Shown here: positions 1-19,695 of the stretch, piece after piece
How the letters are laid out: the number at the start of each line of letters is the position of its first letter
Numbering within the stretch: position 1 is the stretch's first letter
Assembly (NCBI GenBank): GCA_006503475.1
Contig: RSEH01000416.1
Location: 1-21,873 of the forward strand
Source of the DNA: Stentor roeselii
Taxonomy: Eukaryota > Ciliophora > Heterotrichea > Heterotrichida > Stentoridae
Direction: 5' to 3'
DNA length: 21,873 nt
The notes under the pieces: generated by a model
Told to the model about the DNA's origin: nothing
Database searches by the model: none
The model's input: only the letters and a program-made list of their open reading frames with translations
Program-made: the position numbers and the translations under genes

Positions 1-420
1 CAGAATTTTACCAGACCATCAGCTTCACCTAAGGCAAGAAGTCTGCAGTCGGTGAAAAGTTGACTGAAAAGACACTCTCTTTATGGGCCTTTTAATTTCC
101 CTGTTTCTTGTTTGGTGCGAATATCCTAGAGAATGATGTTTTTGATTGTGAACTACTTTGGAAGGAATCTCACGTTTAGCTAAAGGTCAAGTATATCACT
201 TTTGTGTCTTTGTAAGGTGAATTCTTCTCTTTTCAGGGTTTTATTGACTTGTTTTTACATCCTGATGCGGAAATGACTGCAAGGAGAGTAAGTCACTGAA
301 GTCAACTTATTGTTTCGATGTAAAGTTCTAGCTATGGGCAGCTATTTACTTTCATCATCTTGTCTTAGATTGATTAGATCACGGAAACGTCTATTTATTT
401 GTTTGAATCGACTGATGAGA
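1..420 (-). pseudogene. WD40-repeat gene relic, copy 1 (cut by window edge)
   Basis: This is the first of three copies of a decayed WD40 gene, read on the minus strand. The window starts inside the codon block for the blade ending 'VKFW', so only the upstream blades are visible. It is about 94% identical by eye to 4143-4440. Readable pieces include a 'SVNFSP'-type strand and 'IRTKQETRKLKG'. In-frame damage includes TAG at 126-128, where the blade Trp before 'DIR' is expected, and TGA at 233-235, where the Trp of an 'IK-W-KE' blade end is expected. A missing base near 45-56 breaks the frame, as in copy 2 but not copy 3. No continuous ORF remains, so no protein is expected. Confidence 0.75.
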
Positions 421-440
421 TATATTCAATAATATTTTTA

Positions 441-650
441 GTCTTGATATCTTTACCCTTTATATTAGTTTAATATATTTCCTCTATTCTTCTAATTTAT
501 ATTCAGCTTTTCTGGATTATGTTTACTTTACCACTTCTTATAAAAGTTATAATGTGATTTGATATAAACTCACTGATTTAGATGCATTTTTATCCAAGAA
601 TAAGAATTTCAAGTATAGTTATTTTATTACACGGTTACATATGATTATGA
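441..650. repeat. Non-coding repeat, copy 1 (spacer segment of the duplicated unit)
   Basis: This segment matches 4981-5190 along its length, with substitutions and small indels. Both contain 'AAACTCACTGATTTAGA' and end at 'ACATATGATT'. It is very AT-rich and has no open frame. Copy 1 has lost roughly 400 bases that lie between the WD40 relic and this segment in copy 2. The third unit does not show it. It marks ancestry of the tandem duplication. Confidence 0.7.
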
Positions 651-710
651 TAGTATCCTTAATCAGACTCAATGATTTATAACTAAATCTTTAGTCAAAC
701 ATACTATAAA

Positions 711-1451
711 TAACGCATAGTGGATTCAACTTAAATGATTATATATTCAATCAAAACTTACTTTTACTCACACATGATAAGGCCACCATGAGATTTTAAC
801 TCTCAATGATAATAATTTCATCTTCTTAAATCTTTAGATTATGCATTCTATGCGGTTTGAAAGAAATAGTTTTCAATTTTTCTTCTGTATGAAAAGGATA
901 AAGATTTGATTTATTTTGAAAATAAATTTGATTGAATTTTCGCTTTTGATGTTTATATTAGTTTTAGTAAATCATTTTGATATTCCCACGTAATCTAAAT
1001 ATGGAAATTTTGATTCTGATTACTTGATATTATCTAAATTACGAATATTTTGGAAGAGTTAGTGTAGAGAGTTCTAATTTCAAGTAAATTTATATAAACT
1101 GAGTTCGTTTTGTGTTTTTCTAAAATTTCACTCCTTTATTTCCCTATCATCACTGAGAAGTACTCGCGAAAGAATATAAATTAAGTCGATATCCTTAAGG
1201 CCGATTAACACAGAAAACAAATATTTGATATGAATTCATGGTCATTTAAATAAATTTAATAATTATTAGAATAAATCAAATTAACATTCAGTTGATAGCT
1301 TCTAGAATTATTTTCTTATAATTCAACCAAAAGTGATCTTATGATGTGATTTACAACTGAATAAAACCAAAAATCTTGGATTCTAGTAGTATAACCTTGA
1401 GAAAATTTTGTGAAAATTTGTAAAATTTTCATAAAATTACCTAAAATTTGG
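711..1451. repeat. Conserved upstream region of tyrosinase gene 1
   Basis: About 740 bases matching 6717-7460, directly upstream of the second tyrosinase gene. Blocks that stay nearly unchanged include 'CCATGAGATTTTAACTCT' (783-800), 'GAAGTACTC' near 1156 followed by 'GAAAGAATATAA', 'AAGGCCGATTAACACAG' near 1197, and the bases just before the start codon. Between the blocks there are many indels. The region has no convincing ORF. It presumably contains the promoter and 5' UTR of the gene, but I cannot point to a defined promoter element. Confidence 0.65.
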
Positions 1452-3182
1452 ATGGATATAAAAATGGAGTCGAGTACCTCATCAAAAGATCAAGGATATC
1501 ACATCACGGTGAACGTCCACGGAAATAACAATACAATTTCTCTTGATAAGCCTATTGCTCCAAGTATTGCTAGTCAGTCCTTTCCACCATCAAATCCCTT
1601 TGAAACATTCACAGTGACCCCTCTTGTGACCCCAGGCCCAAGAAAATCAATTCAGTTTCTTTGGAAAGAATACCTTAAAGGAAATGGTAAGGAGCTCGAG
1701 GACCTTGTGGATGCATTTGACAAGATCCAGAAATTAGAACCAACCGATCCTAATTCGTACTTCGTAATAGCAGGTCTTCACGGTTCTCCACTATTACTAA
1801 GATACGGAATAGAGAATTTAGAAGATGAGTTGCAAAAATATACTTACTGGGGTGGATATTGTCATCACGGTAATGTTTTATTCCCAGTTTGGCATAGAGC
1901 ATATCTTCAACGTCTTGCAAACGCATTGCAAAGTGTGGTGCCAACAGCTCAAATGGCATATTGGGATGAACTCGATGGTAAAGGTGTTCCTAAGATTTTT
2001 ACCTTAGAAAAATTTAAATTCTGTGATGGAAGAGAAATTAAAAATCCTCTCAAATCATTTACTTTGCCTTTGCCATTGAATGACTTTCCACAGAAGACCG
2101 ACTATATCAAGCCTGAAGGGTATACAACTGTAAGATACCCCTTATCTGGACTTGTGGGCACTGAACAAGATAGAGAAAGAACAGAGATTCATAATGCTCA
2201 ATTTCCTCCACCGGAAGATACAATTGCATTAGTTAAGAATGTTAAACAATGGCAAGCTGGTCCACCGCCTACAACTTTTGACAGAGGAGTTTATGGTGTC
2301 ATGGAAAAGTTTGAAAAATGCTTGAATGCTCCAAATTACACTGTATTTTCCAACAATACCTCAGCCAATGCTTACAACTTATCTCGCAAAATGGACGAAA
2401 ATCAAGAAACTATAATACCAATTGAAAGTCCCCATGATGATATGCATCTTGCAGTAGGAGGCTTTGACTTCCCTACAATAGGCCAAGCCGGAATAATACC
2501 AGGAGCAAACGGAGATATGGGAGAAAACAACACCGCTTCTTTCGACCCCATCTTTCACTTCCATCATTGTTTCATTGACCACATCTTCTGGCAATGGCAA
2601 CAGAGACATGACTCGACGAATTCCATCTCAATAGAAAAAAGATACCCAGGCACATCTGCATTCGATTCACAAGGACCTACCCCTGGGTATAAACCCAACG
2701 ATAGCTTCGATGTTGACTCTCTACTCTATCCTTTTGTTTCCGCTCATGGACAATATTGGACTGCTAATCAAATGAGCAATATTGAAAATTGGGGATATAG
2801 TTATCAAGAACCTCCAAAAACTATTGCTCGTAGAAATAATCGTGTTGAAGCTTTTGCGAGTGTACCGAGAATGCCAGAGAATTCAGAAAAGTTTGTGATT
2901 GACTCGATTAGTAGAAGGAGAGTTTCTGGATCTTCGATTTTAGTGGCTTATGCTTCTCCTAAGTCGAATCCCTCTGAAAAGTATTTGATTGGATATCAGA
3001 GCATTTTGAGCAGAGTCAATGTCGAAGGATGTGCCAACTGCTTGACTCATGTGGACATGTCTTGTGTCTTCCAGCCTTATAGCATTTCAAGGAGTATTGC
3101 CAATGATCTTGAGTTTGAAGTCAAATTAATAACGCATCATGGAGTTATTGAAGAAAGAGTACTCAACGTAGAAGTTTATTAG
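1452..3182 (+). CDS. Tyrosinase-like type-3 copper oxidase, paralog 1
   Basis: A 576-residue protein with a complete dinuclear copper site. CuA: His110 in 'GLHG', His139 in 'YCHHGN' and His148 in 'VWHRAY'. CuB: His328 and His332 in 'PHDDMH', and His372 in 'FHHCFIDH'. Cys137 sits two residues before His139, the spacing of the Cys-His thioether bridge known in fungal tyrosinases. Family members oxidise phenols or catechols to quinones with O2; the substrate here is unknown. No signal peptide or membrane segment is visible, so the protein is probably intracellular. The last ~130 residues look beta-rich and contain a CxxC ('CANC'), the kind of motif linked to copper loading in Aspergillus MelB. 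The open frame extends 14 codons upstream to a GTG, but ATG 1452 matches the paralog and I use it. The gene is ~85% identical to the copy at 7461-9188. An o-diphenol oxidase or other type-3 copper enzyme is possible. Confidence 0.9.
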   Translation: MDIKMESSTSSKDQGYHITVNVHGNNNTISLDKPIAPSIASQSFPPSNPFETFTVTPLVTPGPRKSIQFLWKEYLKGNGKELEDLVDAFDKIQKLEPTDPNSYFVIAGLHGSPLLLRYGIENLEDELQKYTYWGGYCHHGNVLFPVWHRAYLQRLANALQSVVPTAQMAYWDELDGKGVPKIFTLEKFKFCDGREIKNPLKSFTLPLPLNDFPQKTDYIKPEGYTTVRYPLSGLVGTEQDRERTEIHNAQFPPPEDTIALVKNVKQWQAGPPPTTFDRGVYGVMEKFEKCLNAPNYTVFSNNTSANAYNLSRKMDENQETIIPIESPHDDMHLAVGGFDFPTIGQAGIIPGANGDMGENNTASFDPIFHFHHCFIDHIFWQWQQRHDSTNSISIEKRYPGTSAFDSQGPTPGYKPNDSFDVDSLLYPFVSAHGQYWTANQMSNIENWGYSYQEPPKTIARRNNRVEAFASVPRMPENSEKFVIDSISRRRVSGSSILVAYASPKSNPSEKYLIGYQSILSRVNVEGCANCLTHVDMSCVFQPYSISRSIANDLEFEVKLITHHGVIEERVLNVEVY

Positions 3183-3267
3183 TTAAGGATTAGGAATATT
3201 CGTAGATTTTATTGGGAGGCTGGAAGAAAAGTAGTTTGGATTAGTTTGTGGAGATTTAGCACTTTTC
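3183..3267. repeat. 3' flank of tyrosinase 1, shared with paralog 2, ending at a duplication junction
   Basis: The bases after the stop codon match 9189-9274 ('GTTAAGGATTAGGAAT', then 'GCACTTTTCAG'). Homology stops abruptly after that: here the WD40 relic begins, while after the second gene unique sequence begins. This fixes one end of the duplicated unit to within a few bases. No separate terminator or poly(A) signal was identified. Confidence 0.7.
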
Positions 3268-4700
3268 AGGTTAAGACTTTAACCCACCTTGAATCTCATT
3301 TGAGCGAGTTTTCTAGGGTTTTATTCAGCACATTCAGATCTTCACAGTTTTATCAGCGGGTCCAAAAACATCTGGATTCCTTAAAAAAAATAGATGAAAA
3401 TGACCAGTATTGCCTGTTTTTTTCGAACTTAATCTTCGAATTTCAATTAAAAGTTATCTTAAGCTGTGGTAAGTATTTATTCGTCATGGGAAAAGCAAAC
3501 TGACACCACCCAGCTCTTATGTCCTTGAAAAGTACCTTCAAGACATTTTCTTAATTTTCCAGAGCTTTGCAGAGTTCTCAGCGGAGCCAGTCGCTAAAAT
3601 TTTGAATTTGAAAAGAAAAAACAGAGCTGACGTATTCAGATGGAAGTTCGAAACGATTTAATCGCTGTTGTCTCCCCCGCACACTAGAGTCATTCAAAGC
3701 TGAGGCTAAGAAAATCCTGTTCAGCTGAAGCAAATCGAAAGAATTGGGAGAAAATGTTGATTTTCCTTTGAAAGTCTCTAACACCCAGGCAATGATTATT
3801 TTGTCGGTGATGGCAGTTCTTAAAAGTTTATACTTATGGAAAAAAGAAAGAGAAAGCATGATTTTATTTAATATCTTGTATTCTAAAGGTTTCATAGTTC
3901 ACAGGTCACTGAATTCGAACCTGAAGGTAAAAGTCCCCTGTCTGGCGAGTACTGTAAAAATTTATTAAATTTTAATGAAATTTTGCGATTAGCAAATTTC
4001 TTCGTTTTTCAACGTTCCAAATTTTCACTTCATTTCAGCTGAGTCAGAAGCTAAAATTGTTGAATTAGGCGAGAAACATACTGCTTGGACTGAATCTGAA
4101 TGGTCTGGAAGGTTCACCTCGAGTCGATTTTCAATTAAATTCCAGAATTTTACCAGACCATCAGCTTCACCTAAGGCAAGAAGTCTGCAGTCGGTGAAAA
4201 GTTGACTGAAAAGACACTCACTTTATGGGCCTTTTAATTTCCTTGTTTCTTGTTTGGTGCGAACATCTTAGAGAATGATGTTTTTGGTTGTGAACTACTT
4301 TCCCAGGAACCTCACTTTTTTGCTGAAGGTCAAGTATGTCACTTTTGTGTCTTTGTAAGGTGAATTCTTCTCTTTTCAGGGTTTTATTGGCTTGTTTTGA
4401 CATCCTGATGCGGAAATGACTGCAAGGAGAGTAAGTCACTGAAGTCAACTTATCGTTTTGATGTAAAGTTCTAGTTATGGGCAGCTATTTACTTTCATCA
4501 TCTTGTCTTGGATTGATTAGATCACGGAGTCGTCTATGTATTTGTTTTGAATTGACTTGCCAATCAACTTACTGGAGTCACTTGGAGAGATTTCGTTTGG
4601 GAGGTTTTTATTTATATCTAATTAAAAGTCAGAATGAATTTTATAGAATATAAATCTTTTAAATACATGTTCAGTTATGCTCAAGTAGCAAATGGACTTC
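3268..4700 (-). pseudogene. WD40-repeat gene relic, copy 2 (most complete)
   Basis: Read on the minus strand from about 4480 down to 3270, this contains about nine recognisable WD40 blades in different frames. Examples are 'KLTSVTYSP', 'LQRHKSDILDL', 'DVRTKQETRKLKG', 'HKVSVFSVNFSP' plus 'DGLVKFWNLIENRLEV', 'HSDSVQAVCFSPNSTILAS' plus 'VKIWNVEKR', 'SPDRGLLPSGS', 'ITDKIIIAWVLET', 'ATGSAENSAKLW', 'FQGHKSWVVSVCFSHDE' and 'ADKTVKI-stop-NV'. The blades are joined only through frameshifts and stops: TGA replaces an expected Trp at 4376-4378, 3892-3894 and 3334-3336, and TAA does at 4268-4270. Small ORFs in the segment (e.g. 105 codons, minus, 3578-3895) are pieces of it, not genes. The stretch 4570-4700 is non-coding sequence also present in copy 3. 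Parent gene not in this window. Confidence 0.85.
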
Positions 4701-4980
4701 TATCAGAGATAAATAGTAAAATATCATTTAATACATCTCATGAATCGTTTGTAATTCTATGAGATTTTAAACTAAGAAAAAAACTATGAAATTTATATTT
4801 GAAAATTTTGGATAAATTTTCAGATTTGAATTTGACTCGATAATAAGAGAAAGTCTCTTAAAATTATAGTGATTTTTATTTTTAAGTTATTTCATAAAAA
4901 TACTATATTTAATAATTTTTTTCATTTAAAATCATTTCTTAGTTCATATAATTTGTTTTTAAGTCATATATCTCTTCATT
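4701..4980. other. AT-rich spacer inside unit 2
   Basis: Very AT-rich sequence between the WD40 relic and the repeated spacer segment. It has no ORF of note, and I see no clear match to the other units. The corresponding part is missing in unit 1. Nothing functional is visible. Confidence 0.5.
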
Positions 4981-5190
4981 CATCTTAATATCTCTACCCT
5001 TATTATACTTTAATATATTTCTCTATTCTTCTAAGTTTATGTTTAGTTTTTCTGGATTCTATTTACTTTTCCTACTTATTTTAAAAGTTATAAGGTGATT
5101 TTGATATAAACTCACTGATTTAGAATTATTTTTTGATCCAAGAATAACAATTTTAAATATACTTATTTAGTACACGCTACATATGATTTA
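4981..5190. repeat. Non-coding repeat, copy 2 (spacer segment)
   Basis: Matches 441-650. In this copy the upstream-of-tyrosinase segment and the tyrosinase gene do not follow. After about 35 unmatched bases (5191-5223) the next WD40 relic begins. Unit 2 therefore looks like a deleted tandem unit that lost its oxidase gene. Confidence 0.7.
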
Positions 5191-5223
5191 TGGAGGCTTG
5201 AGTCGATTGAGGTCGCCCATATA

Positions 5224-6650
5224 CAGGGTAAGACTTTAACCCACCTTGAATCTCATTTGAGCGAGTTTTTTAGGGTTTTATTCAGCAAATTCAGATCTTC
5301 ACAGTTTTATCAGCGACCCAAAAACATCTGGATTCCTTAAAAAAATTACATGAAACAAACCAGTATTACCTGTTCTTTTCGCACTTAATCTTCGAATTTT
5401 AACTAAAAGTCATCTTAAGCCGTGGTGAGTATTTTTAGTTATGGAAAAGCAAACTGACACCACCAAATTCCTATGTCCTTGAAAAGTACTTTCAAAACGT
5501 TTTCTTAATTTTCCAGAGCTTTGCAGAGTTCTCAGCGGAGCAAGTCGCTAAAATTTTGAATCTGAAGAGAAAAAACAGAGCAGAAGTATTTAGATGGAAG
5601 TTCGAAGCGACTTGATCTCAAATGTCTTCCCCACTCACTAGACTCGTTCAAAGCTGAGGCCAAGAAGATGCTTTTCAGTGAGAAGAAAATCAAAAGAATT
5701 TCACATGTATTGGCAGAAAATGTTGATTTTTCTCGGAGAGTCTCTAAAACCCAGGTCTTGATTATTTGGTCGGTGCTGACAGTGCTTAAAAGTTTATACT
5801 ATGGAAAAAAGAAGAGAAAGCATGTTTTTTATTTAATATGTCCTGTATTCTAAAGGTTTCATACTTCACAGGTCACTGAATTCGAACCTGGAGCCAAAGT
5901 CCCCTGTCTGGCGAGTACTGTAAAAATTTATAAATTTTAATGAAATTTCAGTATATAAAATTTTTTCGATTTTCAACGTTCCAAATTTTCACTTCATTTC
6001 AGCTGAGTCAGAAGCTAAAATTTTTGATTTAGGCGAAAAAATACTGATTGGACTGAATCTGAATGGTCTGGAAGGTTGAACTCGATTCGATTTTCAATTA
6101 AATTGCAGAATTTTACCAGACCATCAGCTTCACCTGAAGCGAGAAGTCTGCATTCATGTGAAAAGTGGACTGAAAAAACACTCAATTTATGGGCCTGCTA
6201 ATTTCCCTGTTTCTTGTTTTGTGCGAACGTCCAAGAGAATGATGTTTTAGCTTGTGATCTACTTTACCACCAACCTCACGTTTTCGCTGAAGGTCAAGTA
6301 TGCCACTTTGTGTCTTTATAAGGTGAATTCTTTTCTTTTCAGATTATTTTACAGATTTTTATTGACTTTTTTTGATAGCCTTATGCGGAAATGACCTCTT
6401 CGTTTCTATATCAAGTTCTAGGTATGGGTAACTATTTACTTTCATCATTTTGTCGTAGATTGAAATACATAATGGCATCGTCTATGTATTTCTTTTGAAT
6501 TGGTTTTTCAATCAACTTGATGAAGTCAATTGAGAGACTTCGTTTGGAATTTTTTTAATTATTTCTAATCGAAAGTAAGAATGAATCTTATAGAATATAA
6601 ATCTTTTAAATACATGTTCAGTTGTGTCTTGTAATCAAATTTTGACTTCT
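5224..6650 (-). pseudogene. WD40-repeat gene relic, copy 3
   Basis: Minus-strand homologue of 3268-4700, the more diverged of the fully visible copies. Blade pieces include 'LLASGEADGLVKF', 'DHSDSVQSVFF', 'VSTDQIIKTWVLET' and 'FQGHRNLVVSVCFS'. It shares with copy 2 the TGA at expected Trp positions (5859-5861 and 5291-5293) and, with both other copies, TGA at 6339-6341. It also shares the frame break just before 'VKIWNVE'. It differs in other lesions: the Trp codon that is TAG or TAA in the others is TTG here (6232-6234), and the 'LASGEADG' blade is still in frame. Clearly non-coding now. Confidence 0.82.
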
Positions 6651-6716
6651 TAAAAATATGGGCTATACATAATACTTTTGCTATAAAATATATATATCAA
6701 AGAGAATCGTATATAT

Positions 6717-7460
6717 AACGGATAGTAGATTCAACTTAAATAATTCAATATTTTATATCAAAACTTGCTTTTACTAACACATGATAAAGACACCATGAGA
6801 TTTTAACTCTAATGATAATAATTTCATATTCTAAATCTTTAGATTATGCATCCTATGTGGTTTTGAAAGAAATAGTTTTGAATCATTTCTTTTCATTGAA
6901 AATGATATATATTTGATTCTGTTTTGAAAATAAATTTGATTGAATTTTTCACTTTTGATGCTTTTCTTACTTATAGTAAATCATCTAATATTCCACGTAA
7001 ATAAAATATGGAAATTTTGATTCTGATTACTTGATATCGGTCTAACTTTCAGAATATTTGATGATTGAAGTATTGATAGTTCTAATTTCAAGTGAATTAT
7101 ATAAAATAAGTTTGTTTTGAGTTTTTTTAAAAACATCACTTCTTCATTTGCCTATAATCACTAAGAAGTACTCACGAAAGAATATAATTTATTCAATATC
7201 CATAAGGCCGATTAACACAGAAAAACCACTATTTGATATGAATTTCATGTTATTTAATGAATTTAATAATTATTAGTACAAATAAAATTTACGATTCAGA
7301 TGATAGCCTCAAGAATTTTTTTCTTAAAAATACAATCAAAAGTGCTCTTAAGTTGTGTTTAACTACTATATTAAAACTTAAAATCTTGAATTCCAGTAGT
7401 ATACCCTTAAAAAAACTTTGAGAAAATTTGTAAAAATTTAATAAATTTACATAAATTTGG
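6717..7460. repeat. Conserved upstream region of tyrosinase gene 2
   Basis: Matches 711-1451 with many small indels, and runs straight into the start codon. Conserved blocks include 'CCATGAGATTTTAACTCT' near 6793, 'AAGGCCGATTAACACAG' near 7203 and the last ~20 bases before the ATG. Probably holds the promoter and leader of the second oxidase gene; no discrete element could be assigned. Confidence 0.65.
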
Positions 7461-9188
7461 ATGGATATAAAAATGGAGTCGAGTATCTCATCAAAAGACC
7501 AAGTGTATCACATCACTGTGAACATCCATGGAAATAACAATACGGTTTCTCTTGATAAACCTATTGTTCCAAGCACTGCTGATCAGTCAATTACACCATC
7601 AAATCTCTTGGAAACATTCAAAATCACCCCTCTTGTGAACCCAGGTCCAAGAAAATCAATTCAATTACTTTGGAAGGAATATCGCAGAGGAAACTGTAAG
7701 GAACTCGAGGACCTTATAGATGCATTTGACAGGATCCAGCAATTAGAGCCAACCAATCCGAATTCGTTCTTCGCGATAGCAGGTCTTCACGGTTCTCCAC
7801 TTAGACTAAGATATGGAATAGAAAACTTGAAAAATGACCTGGAGAAGTATACTTACTGGGGTGGATATTGCCATCACGGTAATGTTTTATTCCCAGTCTG
7901 GCATAGAGCTTATCTTCAAGTACTTGAAAACGCATTGCAAAGTGAGGTGCCAACAGCTCACATGGCATATTGGGATGAACTAGATGGTAAAGGTGTTCCT
8001 GAAATATTTCTCTTAGAAAAATTTAGGTTCTCTGATGGAAGAGAAATAAAAAATCCACTCAAATCATATACTTTGCCTTTGCCATTGAATGACTTTCCAG
8101 ATCAGACAGCTTATATTAAGCCTAAAGGGTATACAACTGTCAGGTACCCCTTATCAGGACTTGTGGGCACTGAAGAAGCTCAAGAATTAACTGAGATTCA
8201 TAATTCTAAATTTCCTCCACCTAAGGATGGTATTGCACTACAAGAAAATGTTAAACAATGGCAAAGTGGACCACCGCCTTCAAATCCTCCGAGAGGAGTT
8301 GACGGTATCATGGCAAAATTCGAAAAATGTTTGAAAGCTCCAAATTACACTGTCTTTTCCAACAACACCTCAGCCAACGCTTACAACTTATCGCGCAAAA
8401 TGGATGAACATCAAGAAACTATAGTTCCAATTGAAAGTCCCCATGATGATATGCATCTTGCAGTGGGAGGCTTTGACTTCCCTGGTTTCCAAGCCGGGAT
8501 ATTACCAGGAGCAAACGGAGATATGGGAGAAAACAACACTGCTTCTTTCGACCCCATCTTTCACTTCCATCATTGTTTCATTGACCACATCTTCTGGCAA
8601 TGGCAACAGAGACATGACTCGACGAAGTACATCTCAATAGAAAAAAGATACCCAGGCACAACTGCATTCGAGTCACAAGGACCTACCCCTGGGTATAGTC
8701 CCAACGATAACTTCGATGAAGAATCACCACTCTATCCTTTTGTTTCCGTTCATGGACAATATTGGACTGCTAATCAAATGAGCAATATTGAAAATTGGGG
8801 ATATAGTTATCACGAATCTCCAAAAACTATTACTCGTAGAAATAATCGTGTTGAAGCTTTTGCGAGTGTGCCAAGATCGCCAGAGAATTCGGAAAAGTTT
8901 GTGATTGACTCGGTTAGTAGAAGGAGAGTTTCTGGATCTTCGATTTTAGTGGCTTATGCTTCTCCTAAGTCGAATCCCTCTGAAAAATTTATGATTGGAT
9001 ATCAGAGCATTTTGAGCAGAGTCAATGTAGAAGGATGTGCCAACTGCTTGACTCATGTGAACATGTCTTGTGTCTTCCAGCCTTATAGTATTGCAAGAAG
9101 TCTTATGAATGATCTTGAGTTTGAAGTCAAATTAATAACGCATCATGGAGTTATTGAAGAAAGAGTACTCAAAGTAGAAGTTTATTAG
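7461..9188 (+). CDS. Tyrosinase-like type-3 copper oxidase, paralog 2
   Basis: A 575-residue tandem paralog of the gene at 1452-3182, about 85% identical by eye, with one one-residue gap ('PTIGQ' versus 'PGFQ'). All six copper ligands are kept: His110, His139 and His148 for CuA; His328, His332 and His371 for CuB. The thioether-type Cys137 and the C-terminal 'CANC' are kept too. Differences cluster in the first 60 residues and at residues ~175-290, outside the copper site. DNA in the CuB and C-terminal parts is nearly identical between the copies, including third positions, while the 5' half is more diverged. There is no signal peptide. The first ATG is chosen because the preceding bases and 'MDIKMESS' match in both copies; the next Met is four codons in. 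Substrate unknown; both copies look functional. Confidence 0.9.
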   Translation: MDIKMESSISSKDQVYHITVNIHGNNNTVSLDKPIVPSTADQSITPSNLLETFKITPLVNPGPRKSIQLLWKEYRRGNCKELEDLIDAFDRIQQLEPTNPNSFFAIAGLHGSPLRLRYGIENLKNDLEKYTYWGGYCHHGNVLFPVWHRAYLQVLENALQSEVPTAHMAYWDELDGKGVPEIFLLEKFRFSDGREIKNPLKSYTLPLPLNDFPDQTAYIKPKGYTTVRYPLSGLVGTEEAQELTEIHNSKFPPPKDGIALQENVKQWQSGPPPSNPPRGVDGIMAKFEKCLKAPNYTVFSNNTSANAYNLSRKMDEHQETIVPIESPHDDMHLAVGGFDFPGFQAGILPGANGDMGENNTASFDPIFHFHHCFIDHIFWQWQQRHDSTKYISIEKRYPGTTAFESQGPTPGYSPNDNFDEESPLYPFVSVHGQYWTANQMSNIENWGYSYHESPKTITRRNNRVEAFASVPRSPENSEKFVIDSVSRRRVSGSSILVAYASPKSNPSEKFMIGYQSILSRVNVEGCANCLTHVNMSCVFQPYSIARSLMNDLEFEVKLITHHGVIEERVLKVEVY

Positions 9189-9274
9189 TTAAGGATTAGG
9201 AATTACTAGATTTTTTTTGGAAGGCTGGAGTGGAAGTATTTTGGATTAGTTTTTGAAAAATTGGCACTTTTCAG
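9189..9274. repeat. 3' flank of tyrosinase 2, end of the duplicated region
   Basis: Matches 3183-3267 after the stop codon. Similarity ends after 'GCACTTTTCAG' at 9274, and the sequence becomes unique. This is the right-hand limit of the tandem array. Confidence 0.7.
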
Positions 9275-9921: not shown

Positions 9922-12900
9922 TTAACTAATCTCTACAAAATGTTCTTTTTTCAAACCTGCAGTTACAGCTAACTTCCTAAAAAACCCGTTTTTCCTCACG
10001 AAAAGGCAAGCAGGTGTATCAAATTCAACACAATTTCCAGAATCCATAACGATAATCCTATCACTGTCAGCAGCAGTTAAATCCTATGAGCAATAACAAT
10101 TAAAGTCGATTCCTCAAACTGACTTTTCATGATCCTCTGTACAAAAACATCAGTTTGCAAATCAATATTCGAAGTGGCTTCATCAAGCAAAACAATTTTA
10201 TTTCTCTTTAAAACGGTTCTTACAATACAAACCAGCTGCTTCTGCCCAGCAGAAAGTTTGACCCCTTCACTTCCCATCAAAGAGTCGATTCCATTTGCCG
10301 AGTTCAAGAAAATTCCTTTTAACTTGACCATTTCCAAGACATCCCAGATCTGGTCATCAGTGAAAAGTCTTAAAGGGTCTAGATTATCTCTTAAAGAGGT
10401 TGAAAACAACACTGAACTTTGCGGAATAACTGAAATTTGACTCCTCAGATCATGAAGACCAAACATTTTATAGTCCTGCCCATCGAGTAAGACAGTCCCT
10501 GAAAGAGGGTCAGCAAGTCTGCATAAAACATGCAAAAGTGAAGACTTTCCTGAACCAGTTCTTCCAACGACCCCTATTCTTTCTCCTGGGTGGATCTCGA
10601 AACTGATGCCGTTTAAAACTGTAGGAAGATGAGGCTGGTACTTGAAAAAAACATTCTGAAATTCGATTTTTCCTGAAGAAATTACGAAATTTTTCAGAGA
10701 GTTTACCTTTTCTTGGTCTAAATCGAAGTACTCAAGTAAGTGTTGCGGGGAAAACATTAAAGAATTTAATTCGAGAAGATCTTTTGTTGCGATTGACGAG
10801 GTGGAAACGATGTTGATAGAAGAAGATAAACTATAAGCACCCAAGCCGACTTCAATCAAATCATCAAATTTGAGGATGAGGATTACATTAATCAAAACAA
10901 TCACCAATCCGAAGATTTCACTATAAAGTTGAGTAAATCTCATGAAGCTTTGATTTGTGATGAAACATCTGTAATACTCGTTTATTTGCTTGAAAAGGTC
11001 AGAAAGGACTTTTTGTTCAAGTTTTTGAGTTCTGATTGTGCAGAGTCCTTCTAAAGCTGAAGAGACATATGAAAGAATCGGCGCCTTCGAAATGTACTCC
11101 TTTTTTCTAAGCTTTGATATATTCGAAGATGTATAATAAAACATCAAAAACAGCACGCACAAGTAAAAAGGAATCACAATTGTAATATAAGGAATCGCAA
11201 TCAACTGCACCACGATTGAGCCCCACAGAAACCCAAGATAGCTCAAAGAATCAAACAAGTAATAATTAAGAGGCCCGTCACAGTTGCTGATATCTCTTGA
11301 AAACCGATTCAACATCCTGCCACTTGGGTTATTATCAAAAAACACACTTTAGCACTTGCAATACTTCTTAAAGACTTGTCATGAATGCTGTGATTATATC
11401 GAGTAAAAAAGGTTAAAAGGTAAAAAGCGGATCCCGCAAGAGTCATGTAAAAAGCAAGAGTCCACATTCCAAGTCCATGCAAAAAGTACCCATCGCTCTT
11501 ATCATCAAGTTTCTCTCTATGCGAGCACCAATAAATGAGTTCTTAATATACAACCATCGTCGCTACTAGTCCCAAAAGTCCGACAACCATGAAAAACCAG
11601 TTCCCAAAGCCTTGTTTCAAGTACCTCCAAAGATTCCTGACCTTCAACTTCTCTAAAATTTCCTCTTCATCCAAAGTGCGCTGACTTCCTGCAATCCAAA
11701 GTCGCGCTTCATCTTCATGGTCCATAAGTGTTTGTTTCAGTTGAATCGAACTTAAAACTTGGTTGTTTTTTTCGAGTTCAGAAAACTTTCCAAAAAAAGT
11801 CTGAGTCCTGTTTTCAATGACGAGGATTTTATCTGCTTTGCTGAGGAACTGCAACTGATGAGTGACGAGGACGATACTTTTGCCTTCACGTAAATTTGCC
11901 AAGATGCATTCTTCAAAAATCTGATTCGCGACTTGTGCGTCAACGGCACTTAAAGGGTCATCTAGCAAAAGAATGTCGAAGTCTCGGTAAAGAGCTCGGG
12001 CGAGGTTGACCCTTGCCTTTTGTCCTCCACTTAAAGTGATTCCTCTTTCGCCGATCCAGGTCTCGTCTCCGGAGATGAACTTTTCCAGGTCTTTTTCAAG
12101 AGCACAGGACCTGATGACTTGAAAATAACGGTCTTGGATCAGAGCTTGGCCCATTAAAATGTTGTCTTTCACTGAGCCGGAGACTATCCAAGGCACTTCA
12201 CTTGCGTAAGAAAGTTTTCAATTGACAAGCATTTCGCCTTCAGATAATTTAAACTCTTTCTGTAGAGCTTGAAGAAGGACTGATTTTCCCCCTCCGATTG
12301 AACCGATGATCATCAGGAGCTTTCCAGAAGAGACTTTGAATGAAAGGTTATAAAGAATTGGCTTGGCTGATGTTTCTTCTAAGAGGTTTTCAATTATTGA
12401 GGATTCTTTAGTGGCAGAAAAAAGAAGGCTAAAGGATACATTTTTTAATTGGATCAGGATTTTTGATTCTGATGGTTCGACCACTGCTGGGCATTCAGGA
12501 AGTGTTAAAATCCCTGTGATCCTTTTTAGTACCCCTCTTATGACGAAGAAGGTGTAGATGGAGACATTATTTTGATGGACTATTGAAACATGGGTGCTGA
12601 TGTAGATGTTTATTATCAGGTAAATTTCTCCTAATGTCAGTGGCTTCTTTAACCATGTTAGGTAAACGTAGAATGTTACAAAAATGCATAGACATACTCC
12701 ACCCATGCTAAAAATAGTCATTAAAGAAGTTACATATCCTGACTTGTACCTGAACTTCATCTCTTTACCTCGAATCTCACAAATTTTATCTGCCAGGAGG
12801 TTTTCCCAGGCGTAAAACTTGAAAATCTTGATGCCTTCAATCAAGTTATGGATTAATTTTATTCTTCTGTCAGAGAGCTCATCACATTTCCCCTTGAAGC

Positions 12901-13604
12901 TGCTTCCGATGCCAGCCAGAAGAAATATAAGAGGAACATGCAAAATAGAAATCCCGATGCCAATCAAGCCAGACTTGTCAAAAAAGTAAACAACCAGGAC
13001 ACAAGCCACAGTGAGAGTGATCGGAGTTCCTATTAAGTACGGGCTGTAAAGCATCAGATCAAAAAGCTCTAGATCGCCGCTGATAAGGTTGAGGACTTTC
13101 CCTTCATTTATAGCATTTTTGTTGGTCTTTAACACTTTTTCTGAAACCGTTTGAGTGATCAAGCATTTGAGCTTCCCAGTAAGTAACAAAAGCCGATACT
13201 CTGCATTGCCTTTCAACGTTATCGCTATGAATGAAAGTACCATAAGTCCTGCTATCAACAGATTTTCTTTTGTGGTATCTTTCGAAGGCTCTTGCAAATA
13301 ATCGATCATTTCTTTCAAAATAACTGCCATGAACAAGCATTGAATGTTGCCGATGATCTGGATGAGGGATGAAGTTAAGAAGTCTCTCCAGATCACTTTG
13401 AACAGAGCTCTTGCAAATGAAGGCTTTGGAGAATTTGCCTCTTTTTTTCCAGGCATTCTGGAGATTGATGAAAGAGTCTTCGAGCTGAAGATCTTTCGGG
13501 ATTTCACAAAGTTTTGGTCTTAGTGAATTTCGAAGGTGACTAAAAAGCCAGGTAAAGAGCAAATTACTTTTAATGCAATCAGTCTTTATGCTCTCTTCAG
13601 CCAT
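9922..13604 (-). pseudogene. ABCC/MRP-type ABC transporter, disrupted by five lesions
   Basis: A full-length two-half ABC exporter, about 1,225 codons, without the extra N-terminal TMD0 (the short ABCC layout). Order: N-tail with 'QLEDSFINLQNAW'; TMD1 with 'GKVLNLISGDLELFD' and 'GIKIFKFYAWE'; NBD1 with Walker A 'GSIGGGKS', signature 'LSGGQKAR', 'LLLDDPLSAVDA' and H-loop 'THQ'; TMD2 with 'FFDNNPSGRMLNRFSRD'; NBD2 with 'GRTGSGKS', 'LSAGQKQ', 'LLDEATSNID' and 'AHR'. NBD1 has Asp where NBD2 has the catalytic Glu, as is usual in this family. Lesions in reading order: one extra A in the A7 run at 13442-13448; TGA at 12218-12220 in 'LVN-stop-KLSYASE'; TAA at 11543-11545 in TMD2; one T too few at 11337-11342; one base missing at about 10077-10082, after 'AHR'. 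The frame then reads 'TAADSDRIIVMD' to TAA 9922-9924. The Q-loop of NBD1 has Glu ('SYASE'). The frame is otherwise open, suggesting recent death or consensus errors. Confidence 0.85.
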
Positions 13605-15709: not shown

Positions 15710-17776
15710 CTAAAATAAATATCTAGTAAGTTCAAACTCAAGGCTTCTATCCTGATAGAGCCACTTTTTCATTTCATTTTCATCCCTAAATTCTCGAAGT
15801 TCAGCTTTTTTTAAGTAATTCAAAACCGATACTCCAAAATAAGTACTTGCAAATACGATATATTTATCATCACCAGTCATCCAGACCCTTTCTATAACAG
15901 AATTATTATTGAAGGTACGGAAGCAGACATTCTTCAGTATATCCCAAACAATAACTTTTTGATCAATACCTGCAGAAACTGAGTATTTTTTATTTTTGGT
16001 GAATTTAACAGATAAAACATTACCTCTATGCTCACGAAAGAAACACTCTTGTTTTAAAGATTTCAAATCCCAGATCCTCAACACTCCATTAATGTCTCCT
16101 GAGATGGCTTTTTGAGAGTCTTTTGATATATCCACACAAAGAACTGATCCTTGATGGCCTGAGAGTGTCGTTCTCTTTATTTTCCTCTGAACATCCCATA
16201 ATATCAGATTATCAGAAATCCCTTTCGATGAACTTATCAAATAGTTTAAATCTGATGATAAACAAGTCGATAAAACAAGCTCAGGATGACCACTTAGCAC
16301 AGTTTCACTTTCAATTTTACTATTGTCTACTAGAATTACATTTTCCAAGCTTCCAAAGGAAATCATGTCTCCTTGAATGCTCTCGGAATAAACTTTAAAA
16401 GCTTTTGAATAAAAGAAAGTTTCAAAAGTTTTAGATAAAATTCTTGATACTCCTATTCTTGAATCACTTGAGACTGAAATTATGAAATCACTGTATGTAA
16501 AAAGTCCAGTCACTGAATCTAAGTGGAAATTAAACTGATGTATTTTTGATTTTGACTTAATATTCCATAAAATAATGGAATTGTCTCTTGAACCTGATAA
16601 AATGTGATTGTTATCTGAGGTAATAGATACTGATAATACTTCTTTGGTATGGCCTGAGAGAGATGCGTAAAGTAAATTTGATGAAACTTCAAAAATTCTC
16701 ACAAATGTATCAGTGGAGCAGGTAATTATATAGATTTCGTTTGAACTTAAAATGATTGATTTTATATCTGAATTATGCACACCTTTTACTGTTGTAGTTT
16801 TGTAATTTGAATTTAAATCTATGATATACAAGGATTTTCCAACCCCCGCATAAAATATACTCTTAGAGCATACTAAAATATTGATGGTACTTTCATAAGT
16901 CATTTTCTTTATATTTTCCAGAGTATCTTCCTTCCAAAACAAAATATCTCCATTTCTACTCCCTGACACAATTATCTTTAATCCTCTAAAAACATCAATC
17001 GTATAGACTACATCTGTGTGTCCAGTCAATACTTGAAAATTACCTAATTTATTCAAATTCCTCAAAATCAAAGTTCTATCATCAGACCCCGAAATTACCT
17101 TCGTGTCATTTGCAAAGAGACATACACAGTTAACAGTTGATTTATGGCCAAACAGGCAAGAAGTTTGCCTCTTAGACTCCATATCCCAGACACGAACTGT
17201 TGAGTCTTTTGATCCTGTCACTAGAGTTCTACAATCTTTTGATATTGCAAGACATTTGAACCCTCCCTGATAGTTTTCCAGTGCTTTTTTAGTTATATTT
17301 TCTTTTAGCTTGCAAATGTCTGAAATTAATGAAAAAGTCTCTTGAGAGTAAACTTCTTCTATGGCTTCATCCAATGGTTTTATATTTAAAGTGTTTTTCA
17401 CAAGTGCGGAGGAAAGAATTGATTTGATTTCCTTGAATTCGGAAATTTTGAATTTCGTTTTTGATAAGAGGCCGTTGTATTGAGAAATTTGATTGTCAAG
17501 CTTTAACAATAACGAGGCCTTTTGTGATTCAATGTTTTTTATGATCTTGGTTGTGATAGAACAGATTTCGGATTTTAAGCTTGTTAAGGTCATCACCCAG
17601 CTAGCTAGTTTGGAGTCTAGCATTAATTTTTCTGATGGGTTAATCACTTTGATTAGGTTCTCTATTCTGTGATCCCCACTAAAGAGCATGTGTTTACCTA
17701 AGTGGATCTCGCAGAGAGATATGTCAAAGCATCTGCAGATAAAAGAAGGATTTTTCAGACAATCTTCACAATCCAT
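15710..17776 (-). CDS. Zinc-motif / coiled-coil / WD40-repeat protein
   Basis: A 688-residue protein with three parts. Residues 3-36 form a B-box-like Cys/His cluster (C3, C6, C14, C16, C22, H25, H29, H36). Residues ~50-160 look helical and rich in Lys, Glu, Ser and Leu, consistent with a coiled coil. Residues ~165-660 hold about 12 WD40-type units, at least nine clear, with ends such as 'VRVWDMES', 'IILWNIKS', 'LILWDVQR', 'LRIWDLKS' and 'VIVWDILK', and typical 'GH' starts. Twelve units could form two propellers. Such proteins usually act as scaffolds; no enzyme domain is seen, so the partner and role are unknown. The ATG at 17776 is right for the zinc motif, which begins at residue 3. It is head-to-head with the kelch-like gene at 18397, whose N-terminus has the same cluster. 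No signal peptide. Confidence 0.9.
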   Translation of the reverse strand: MDCEDCLKNPSFICRCFDISLCEIHLGKHMLFSGDHRIENLIKVINPSEKLMLDSKLASWVMTLTSLKSEICSITTKIIKNIESQKASLLLKLDNQISQYNGLLSKTKFKISEFKEIKSILSSALVKNTLNIKPLDEAIEEVYSQETFSLISDICKLKENITKKALENYQGGFKCLAISKDCRTLVTGSKDSTVRVWDMESKRQTSCLFGHKSTVNCVCLFANDTKVISGSDDRTLILRNLNKLGNFQVLTGHTDVVYTIDVFRGLKIIVSGSRNGDILFWKEDTLENIKKMTYESTINILVCSKSIFYAGVGKSLYIIDLNSNYKTTTVKGVHNSDIKSIILSSNEIYIITCSTDTFVRIFEVSSNLLYASLSGHTKEVLSVSITSDNNHILSGSRDNSIILWNIKSKSKIHQFNFHLDSVTGLFTYSDFIISVSSDSRIGVSRILSKTFETFFYSKAFKVYSESIQGDMISFGSLENVILVDNSKIESETVLSGHPELVLSTCLSSDLNYLISSSKGISDNLILWDVQRKIKRTTLSGHQGSVLCVDISKDSQKAISGDINGVLRIWDLKSLKQECFFREHRGNVLSVKFTKNKKYSVSAGIDQKVIVWDILKNVCFRTFNNNSVIERVWMTGDDKYIVFASTYFGVSVLNYLKKAELREFRDENEMKKWLYQDRSLEFELTRYLF

Positions 17777-18396: not shown

Positions 18397-19695
18397 ATGA
18401 ATCAAGAATGCAGTATCATAAATTGTCCTTCATTACCAGATTTTATATGCACCTGCTCAGATCCTAGGTTAAAACTGTGTAAGATTCACCTTCAAATACA
18501 TCTCACAAGTTTAAATCATGCTAAACACATTTTATATCCAGCATTTAAAATGACTACAGAAGATCAGAAGCCAATGCTATTGGAATTTCTGAAAAACTTG
18601 ATACAATCAACAATTAATTCCAAGAATCAACTTCAGCGAATGATAGAAACATTTTTATCAAAATCAGCAAGTCTCTTAAATTTGATGAATAGACAAATTG
18701 ACGAACTTAAATCAAATTTTAAAATCTTACTGAGAGAAAACAGAATAATGAAACTTCCAGATATTCAACCAGACTTTGAAGATTTTCTAATCTGTTATGA
18801 AGACATTCATTCGTTGAAAAATAATTTTCGAGATATAAAAAAATATGTTGAAATCAGAAAAAAAATGCAATCTGAGCTTAAGGAAATAATTAGAACTATT
18901 CGAATGAATGAAGATCTCAAAGAGTATGGATTAATTGGAACTACTCTGTATTTTTTTAATTCTAATTCAATCATGCTTAATTTATTTTATACTTCAGCTG
19001 AGACAGTTGATAAAATCGCAATTCCTTTTTTACCGCATATGAGTGACTTGGCCTCAATCATGCAAATTAACAAAGATGAGATATTTGTGTTTGGAGGAAA
19101 AACTAATCCAATCACATCAAGTGCATTTATTATAAACCCACTAAAAAAATCGTTTAAGCAGCTTAAATCAGGATCAGCTAAATTCGGAGCTTCTCCTTCC
19201 TTACTTGAAAATAAAATCTATATTTTTGGAGGAGTTAACAAAGATAAAGACAAAGAGATCTCTTTAGATTCATCTAGTTATTTCAGTCTAGTGAGTGAAA
19301 CTTGGACCAATATTCAAAAAATTCCTACTAAAACTGGATATACTAGTACGTTAACGATTGATAAAGAAATTCTGATATCAGGGGATTCAAAAAACCTGTA
19401 TTTGTATTCAACAGCACAAAACACTTATCGTGAAATCGCAAACAATCTTAACATAAAAAAATTTAATATATTGATTCCTTTCAAACGAAATATCCTACTG
19501 GTAAGTGAAACTGTTTATATTTCAAGCATTCAAGTATTAAACACCTGGAAAGATGTGGCGAAATTAAGTGTCTGGAAAGAAACCACTTGCAAGCCAATGA
19601 TTAGGGGAAAATTTTGTTATTTTGCTGGATTTGAGTCAGAAATTTATAAATTCGACTGCGTGAATCATGTGATTAAGACTATAGCAAATTATTAG
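18397..19695 (+). CDS. Zinc-motif / coiled-coil / kelch-like propeller protein
   Basis: A 432-residue protein with the same layout as its divergent neighbour but a different propeller. The N-terminal Cys/His cluster has C5, C10, C18, C20, C28, H31, H35 and H41, with the same C-x7-C-x-C and C-x2-H-x3-H spacing as the WD40 protein. Residues ~50-175 look helical, coiled-coil-like. From ~205 on there are kelch-type strands: 'IFVFGGKT', 'KIYIFGGVN' followed by 'SETWTNIQKIP', then weaker units with 'ILISGDSKNLYLYST' and 'NTWKDVAKLSVW'. Five or six blades seem likely, the last ones lacking the Gly-Gly pair. Kelch propellers mostly bind proteins. No enzymatic or membrane part is visible. Function unknown; I infer a scaffold from a lineage-specific family built by joining this N-terminal module to different propellers. 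Confidence 0.87.
   Translation: MNQECSIINCPSLPDFICTCSDPRLKLCKIHLQIHLTSLNHAKHILYPAFKMTTEDQKPMLLEFLKNLIQSTINSKNQLQRMIETFLSKSASLLNLMNRQIDELKSNFKILLRENRIMKLPDIQPDFEDFLICYEDIHSLKNNFRDIKKYVEIRKKMQSELKEIIRTIRMNEDLKEYGLIGTTLYFFNSNSIMLNLFYTSAETVDKIAIPFLPHMSDLASIMQINKDEIFVFGGKTNPITSSAFIINPLKKSFKQLKSGSAKFGASPSLLENKIYIFGGVNKDKDKEISLDSSSYFSLVSETWTNIQKIPTKTGYTSTLTIDKEILISGDSKNLYLYSTAQNTYREIANNLNIKKFNILIPFKRNILLVSETVYISSIQVLNTWKDVAKLSVWKETTCKPMIRGKFCYFAGFESEIYKFDCVNHVIKTIANY

Follow-up and report, generated by a model that had tools for sequence, protein, structure and literature searches.

The repeats that surround the tyrosinase genes of the window, i.e., the complete contig C367 of 21,873 bases in an assembly of 44.4 Mb and 522 contigs, are very probably pseudogene copies of a single WD40-repeat gene with a length of about 17 blades, which would have hitch-hiked on the duplication of a tyrosinase segment. 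The original prediction, that the repeats around the tyrosinases are copies of a dead WD40 gene, is borne out, as all three carry both a WD40 signal and disabling changes. Its picture of positions 1-6650 as three such copies needs amending: the three are present, but an intact tyrosinase ORF and spacers lie among them, and the count applies to the window, where the contig edge truncates copy 1, at least one more copy being found on contig C111. The features are as follows, "dead gene" standing for the probable WD40 pseudogene:

1-413, minus strand: dead gene copy 1, 5' part only, WD40 signal at 50-320, cut by the contig end
421-1400, no strand assigned: spacer from copy 1 to tyrosinase 1
1452-3182, plus strand: tyrosinase gene 1 (PF00264), intact; counted from the ATG at 1452 it encodes 576 aa, whereas the mechanical ORF starts at 1410
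3267-4680, minus strand: dead gene copy 2, WD40 signal at 3470-4463, 3'-truncated at 3267
4983-5188, no strand assigned: spacer remnant past copy 2, 85% identical to 442-646
5224-6626, minus strand: dead gene copy 3, WD40 signal at 5443-6368, 3'-truncated
7461-9188, plus strand: tyrosinase gene 2, intact, 575 aa, 84.7% amino acid identity to gene 1 (dN 0.083, dS 0.241)

The WD40 signal was measured with a cyclic profile made from 23 non-redundant blades of intact WD40 proteins of the same genome, with one G column set by hand, to which DNA was aligned with frameshifts and stops allowed and scores given in half-bits. On the minus strand, copies 2 (3470-4463), 3 (5443-6368) and 1 (50-320) scored 258.9, 222.3 and 71.8, the highest of 60 dinucleotide shuffles reaching 48.5, 48.0 and 38.9, respectively, whereas the plus strand of the same three copies (34.0, 36.1 and 26.7) stayed at shuffle level. 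The minus strand of spacer 421-1400 (30.9) and of tyrosinase gene 1 (31.3) was at shuffle level as well, and the window's intact 688-aa WD40 gene, a positive control that contributed three of its blades to the profile, scored 647.9. The C111 copy reached 184.3 and copy 1 joined to contig C501 reached 442.2, with maxima of 47.8 and 48.9 in 40 shuffles each. The repeats thus contain recurrent blades of about 42 aa on one strand, above background. The frame-aware search suggested with the original prediction returned a minus-strand match far above the shuffles and ahead of the plus strand; the four WD40 motifs quoted there were recovered in copy 2 (4192-4227, 4133-4162, 4002-4028 and 3489-3530), all on the minus strand and in three frames, and its estimate of about nine blades agrees with the alignment traces of copies 2 and 3.

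Searching the assembly with 3268-4700 as a DNA query gave five matching places, three in the window and one each at C501:1-971 and C111:1307-2527, the copy on C111 adjoining another tyrosinase. Copies 2 and 3 end (3267 and 5224) at one identical point of the gene, past which their sequences differ, and the 3' part of the gene is missing from both; at 3267 the 3' flank of tyrosinase 1 abuts copy 2. The window start overlaps reversed C501 by exactly 77 nt, and the start of contig C275 overlaps reversed C111 by exactly the same length; these overlaps look like de Bruijn graph breaks. Copy 1 probably continues across the overlap into C501 (C501:1-1931), within which WD40 similarity extends to C501:1931. 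The pairing of C501 with C367 is likely rather than proved, because the contigs are joined through overlaps of 77 nt and because the sequence of positions 1-77 occurs again at 4143 in the window. Copy 1 and C501 combined are about 2.17 kb long, which on division by 126 nt corresponds to about 17 blades, and given the two together the full dead gene is probably about 17 blades long.

We consider the gene dead because each copy carries 17-37 frameshifts and 2-11 stops, because indels between copies are blind to the frame, because substitutions show no significant codon-position bias and because a model with tiny introns leaves the breaks in place, and on all four counts the earlier reading of the gene as dead stands. 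Aligned to the WD40 profile, copy 1 joined to C501 showed 37 frameshifts and 9 stops, copy 2 17 and 2, copy 3 18 and 2, and the C111 copy 18 and 11. Such disablement is absent from the intact relatives, with neither frameshift nor stop in the 688-aa gene of the window or in the WD40 proteins on C281 and C178, and one frameshift and no stop in that on C314. Against the single intact protein of C314, copy 2 showed 12 frameshifts and 9 stops and copy 3 showed 6 and 5, frameshift calls varying with the penalties and with the stretch aligned.

Frame jumps may also be produced by splicing in a live WD40 gene with introns of the heterotrich type. The telomere repeat and the standard code suggest a Stentor-like ciliate with introns of 15-16 nt (PMC9942806, PMC9505925, in the passages concerned), and as Stentor introns are given as 15-16 nt in a passage of PMC9505925, the alignment was free to place GT..AG introns 15 or 16 nt long for a small penalty. 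The alignments of copies 2, 3 and C111 contained no such intron, and the single one used in copy 1 joined to C501 took its frameshifts from 37 to 38 and left its stops at 9, so that no copy lost a frameshift or a stop. As the intact WD40 relatives occupy continuous open frames as long as 2483 aa and the indels between copies disregard the frame, splicing is an extremely unlikely explanation. Errors of sequencing or assembly in a live gene deserve just as little credence: the assembly is broken at 77-mers within the array and is therefore imperfect here, yet copies 1-3, although 13-14% divergent, agree on the position of three called frameshifts, the tyrosinase ORFs of the same contigs are open, and the substitutions are without significant codon-position bias.

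Comparison of the copies among themselves (c1-c3 for those of the window, cB for that of C111) and of the tyrosinases (t1 and t2 in the window, tB the third of the group) further supports the reading of a dead gene. Indels with lengths other than a multiple of 3 accounted for 11 of 12 between c1 and c2, 19 of 21 between c1 and c3 and 14 of 16 between c2 and c3, and for 25 of 27, 26 of 27 and 30 of 31 when c1, c2 and c3 were compared with cB. Codon-position bias among the differences was not significant in any of the 12 pair-by-frame tests of the dead gene (lowest p 0.09), nor when pooled over its independent pairs (p 0.24 and 0.19); in the three tyrosinase pairs p ranged from 6e-5 to 1e-10. 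With 0 of 12 tests significant, purifying selection on the former frame was not detected. Since codon position 3 was numerically the highest in all 12, slight past constraint on the WD40 frame may nonetheless have acted.

Divergence (K2P) was 0.142-0.154 among copies 1-3 and 0.215-0.222 between these and the C111 copy, and four-fold sites of the tyrosinases gave 0.146 (t1-t2) and 0.260-0.284 (to tB). Spacers differed between window units by 0.180 and 0.192, slightly above copies 1-3, and from the C111 locus by 0.169-0.177, below the 0.215-0.222 of the dead gene, and the 86-nt 3' flank of the tyrosinase gave 0.247 in the same K2P set. The reading frames of the three tyrosinases (575-576 codons) are uninterrupted, their dN/dS (NG86) being about 0.35, 0.22 and 0.25, and the dead gene beside them offers a local near-neutral yardstick next to constrained genes.

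Whole-length traces place seven frameshifts, within 6 columns, in common to copies 1-3; realigned singly, those at columns 673, 753 and 1126 are again called in each of copies 1-3 and the remaining four are not. Because frameshifts are common to copies 1-3, we infer that the gene had died by the time of the tandem duplication that gave rise to the window copies. Death before the split of the window and C111 loci is probable rather than shown, the case resting on one traced site: column 1126 is the only common frameshift that site-by-site realignment calls at the same place in C111. The whole-length trace of C111, which covers 186 columns only, gave no break called as common with copies 1-3, and at columns 477 and 673 the C111 sequence looks like the copies, with no common break called there by the aligner. 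A by-eye reading of three frameshifts common to all four copies was thus reduced by the site-by-site test to the one at column 1126.

The dead gene lies within a larger duplicated segment, as a similar Cys-rich ORF is seen by eye beyond it on both C501 and C111, and as C111 and C275 together match the window through the tyrosinase and the ABC transporter gene up to about 15,030. The segment of Cys-rich gene, dead WD40 gene, tyrosinase and ABC transporter occurs twice (C501+C367 and C111+C275) at about 77-87% DNA identity, and the second may be a paralogous segment, a divergent haplotype or a second organism in the sample. Within the window, spacer part 442-646 occurs again at 4983-5188, and the block 705-3269, consisting of spacer, tyrosinase and 3' flank, occurs again at 6710-9274. 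Loss of a middle tyrosinase between the spacer remnant 4983-5188 and copy 3 is weakly suggested; the 36-nt junction was compared with the flanks of tyrosinases 2 and 1, and its scores were reached by 8 and 57 of 500 shuffles, respectively. The window ABC gene (10077-13604, minus strand; PF00005 and PF00664 on a 422-aa piece) is itself broken: by eye, stops interrupt the frame near 12220 and 11545, and the frame changes near 13450 and near 11345. Its paralogue on C275 consists, over the part read, of a single open frame of 1034 codons.

We propose that an ancestral WD40 gene of about 17 blades died before the tandem duplication, and that its death probably preceded the doubling of the segment comprising the Cys-rich protein gene, the dead WD40 gene, the spacer, the tyrosinase and the ABC transporter. 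In the C501+C367 segment, the unit of dead WD40 gene, spacer and tyrosinase would then have been duplicated in tandem; a breakpoint within the dead gene would account for the 3' truncation that copies 2 and 3 share. The dead gene would have been carried along passively by duplication of the tyrosinase segment, and most likely it does nothing.

A dead WD40 copy lies upstream and in opposite orientation at all three intact tyrosinases of the close group (window 1, window 2 and C111/C275), as one would see if the repeats were retained for some function other than coding, such as antisense or regulatory action on the tyrosinase genes. This association is explained, however, by the whole segment having been duplicated, and copies 1-3 diverge at about the rate of four-fold sites. 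Moreover, a broken tyrosinase fragment on C417 (16246-16867, minus strand), with in-frame stops and adjoining an ABC-like stretch, lacks a WD40 signal in the 1.5 kb and 4.2 kb read upstream: C417:15068-18367 gave no match of at least 50 half-bits, and C417:18300-22500 scored 44.1 and 36.7 on its two strands. Two less closely related tyrosinases, on C171 and C219, likewise have no WD40 signal within the flanks read. Retention for such a role is therefore highly improbable, and there is equally little to favour a putative transcribed antisense or chromatin element upstream of each tyrosinase that would control tyrosinase expression or macronuclear copy number.

The intact parent gene that the original prediction expected to be found was sought across the assembly, and no close one was detected by searches that scored only the best candidates and could miss a more distant parent. 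In a search with a 50-aa piece of copy 2 (best 150 of 1185 candidates scored) the top match after the window and C501 was C281, an open frame of 638 aa that is 55% identical to the piece. Copy 1 joined to C501 scored 334 against the 1651-aa protein of C314, at 36% identity over 591 residues (maximum of 8 shuffles 51), the highest score in a ranking against the longest ORFs of WD40 loci numbered below L069, pseudogene loci excluded. As a DNA query of the assembly, C501:950-3050 matched only C501 itself and C111. The window's own WD40 gene at 15710-17776 was rejected as parent, since its alignment scored 85.6 (108 residues, 30% identity) and that of C314 scored 334.

The proteins of C314 and C281, long tandem-blade proteins of PF00400, resemble the dead gene in their blades of about 42 aa and differ from it in their intact open frames. 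That of C314 (C314:15002-19954, i.e., L038:5003-9955) is an intact protein of 1651 aa with 17 PF00400 stretches, an ankyrin match below the Pfam cut-off (26.4 versus 27.3 bits) and a hydrophobic C-terminal part that is channel-like in appearance, with no Pfam channel model matched. Unlike C314, with its weak ankyrin match and hydrophobic C-terminal part, copy 1 joined to C501 bears no trace of this region (43.6, with 5 shuffles at 41-51). The WD40 family of this genome is very large, with near-identical tandem blades on many contigs (G000, loci L006-L035; best 150 of 4124 candidates scored), and many of the matches listed lie near contig ends, in keeping with subtelomeric placement or with assembly breaks in repeats. 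The window also carries at 18397-19695 on the plus strand an ORF of 432 aa in which kelch motifs are recognised. Its N-terminus is rich in Cys and His, is similar to the N-terminus of the WD40 gene at 15710-17776 and is taken by us to be B-box-like; no B-box family was among the Pfam matches listed for it.

A run of three CCCTAACA units has 547 exact matches in the assembly (220 forward, 327 reverse; reversed control 0), and among the matches listed the forward ones lie at the first bases of contigs. According to passages of PMC9942806, the telomere repeat of Blepharisma is a permutation of CCCTAACA and UGA is read as tryptophan there; Stentor uses the standard genetic code, as a passage of PMC9505925 has it, and the genes read here are open under that code. 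In annotation, the repeats are best labelled as WD40 pseudogenes, the short mechanical ORFs within 3246-4448 and 5668-5853 being most likely spurious, and the copies are a record of gene turnover within the very large WD40 family of this probable heterotrich ciliate. To the original prediction our analysis adds the length of the gene, the additional copy and the absence of a close intact parent.

The WD40 repeats are an ordinary duplicated pseudogene of a large gene family. Duplicated (non-processed) pseudogenes occur in tandem arrays, and as in such arrays the dead gene is copied here together with a live neighbour, the tyrosinase, and the spacer, and shows frame-blind indels and near-neutral substitution. 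A processed (retro)pseudogene is copied without flanking DNA, whereas here spacer and tyrosinase are co-duplicated. What sets this case apart from the usual duplicated pseudogene is that the WD40 gene had apparently died before it was duplicated, or at any rate before the duplication in tandem.
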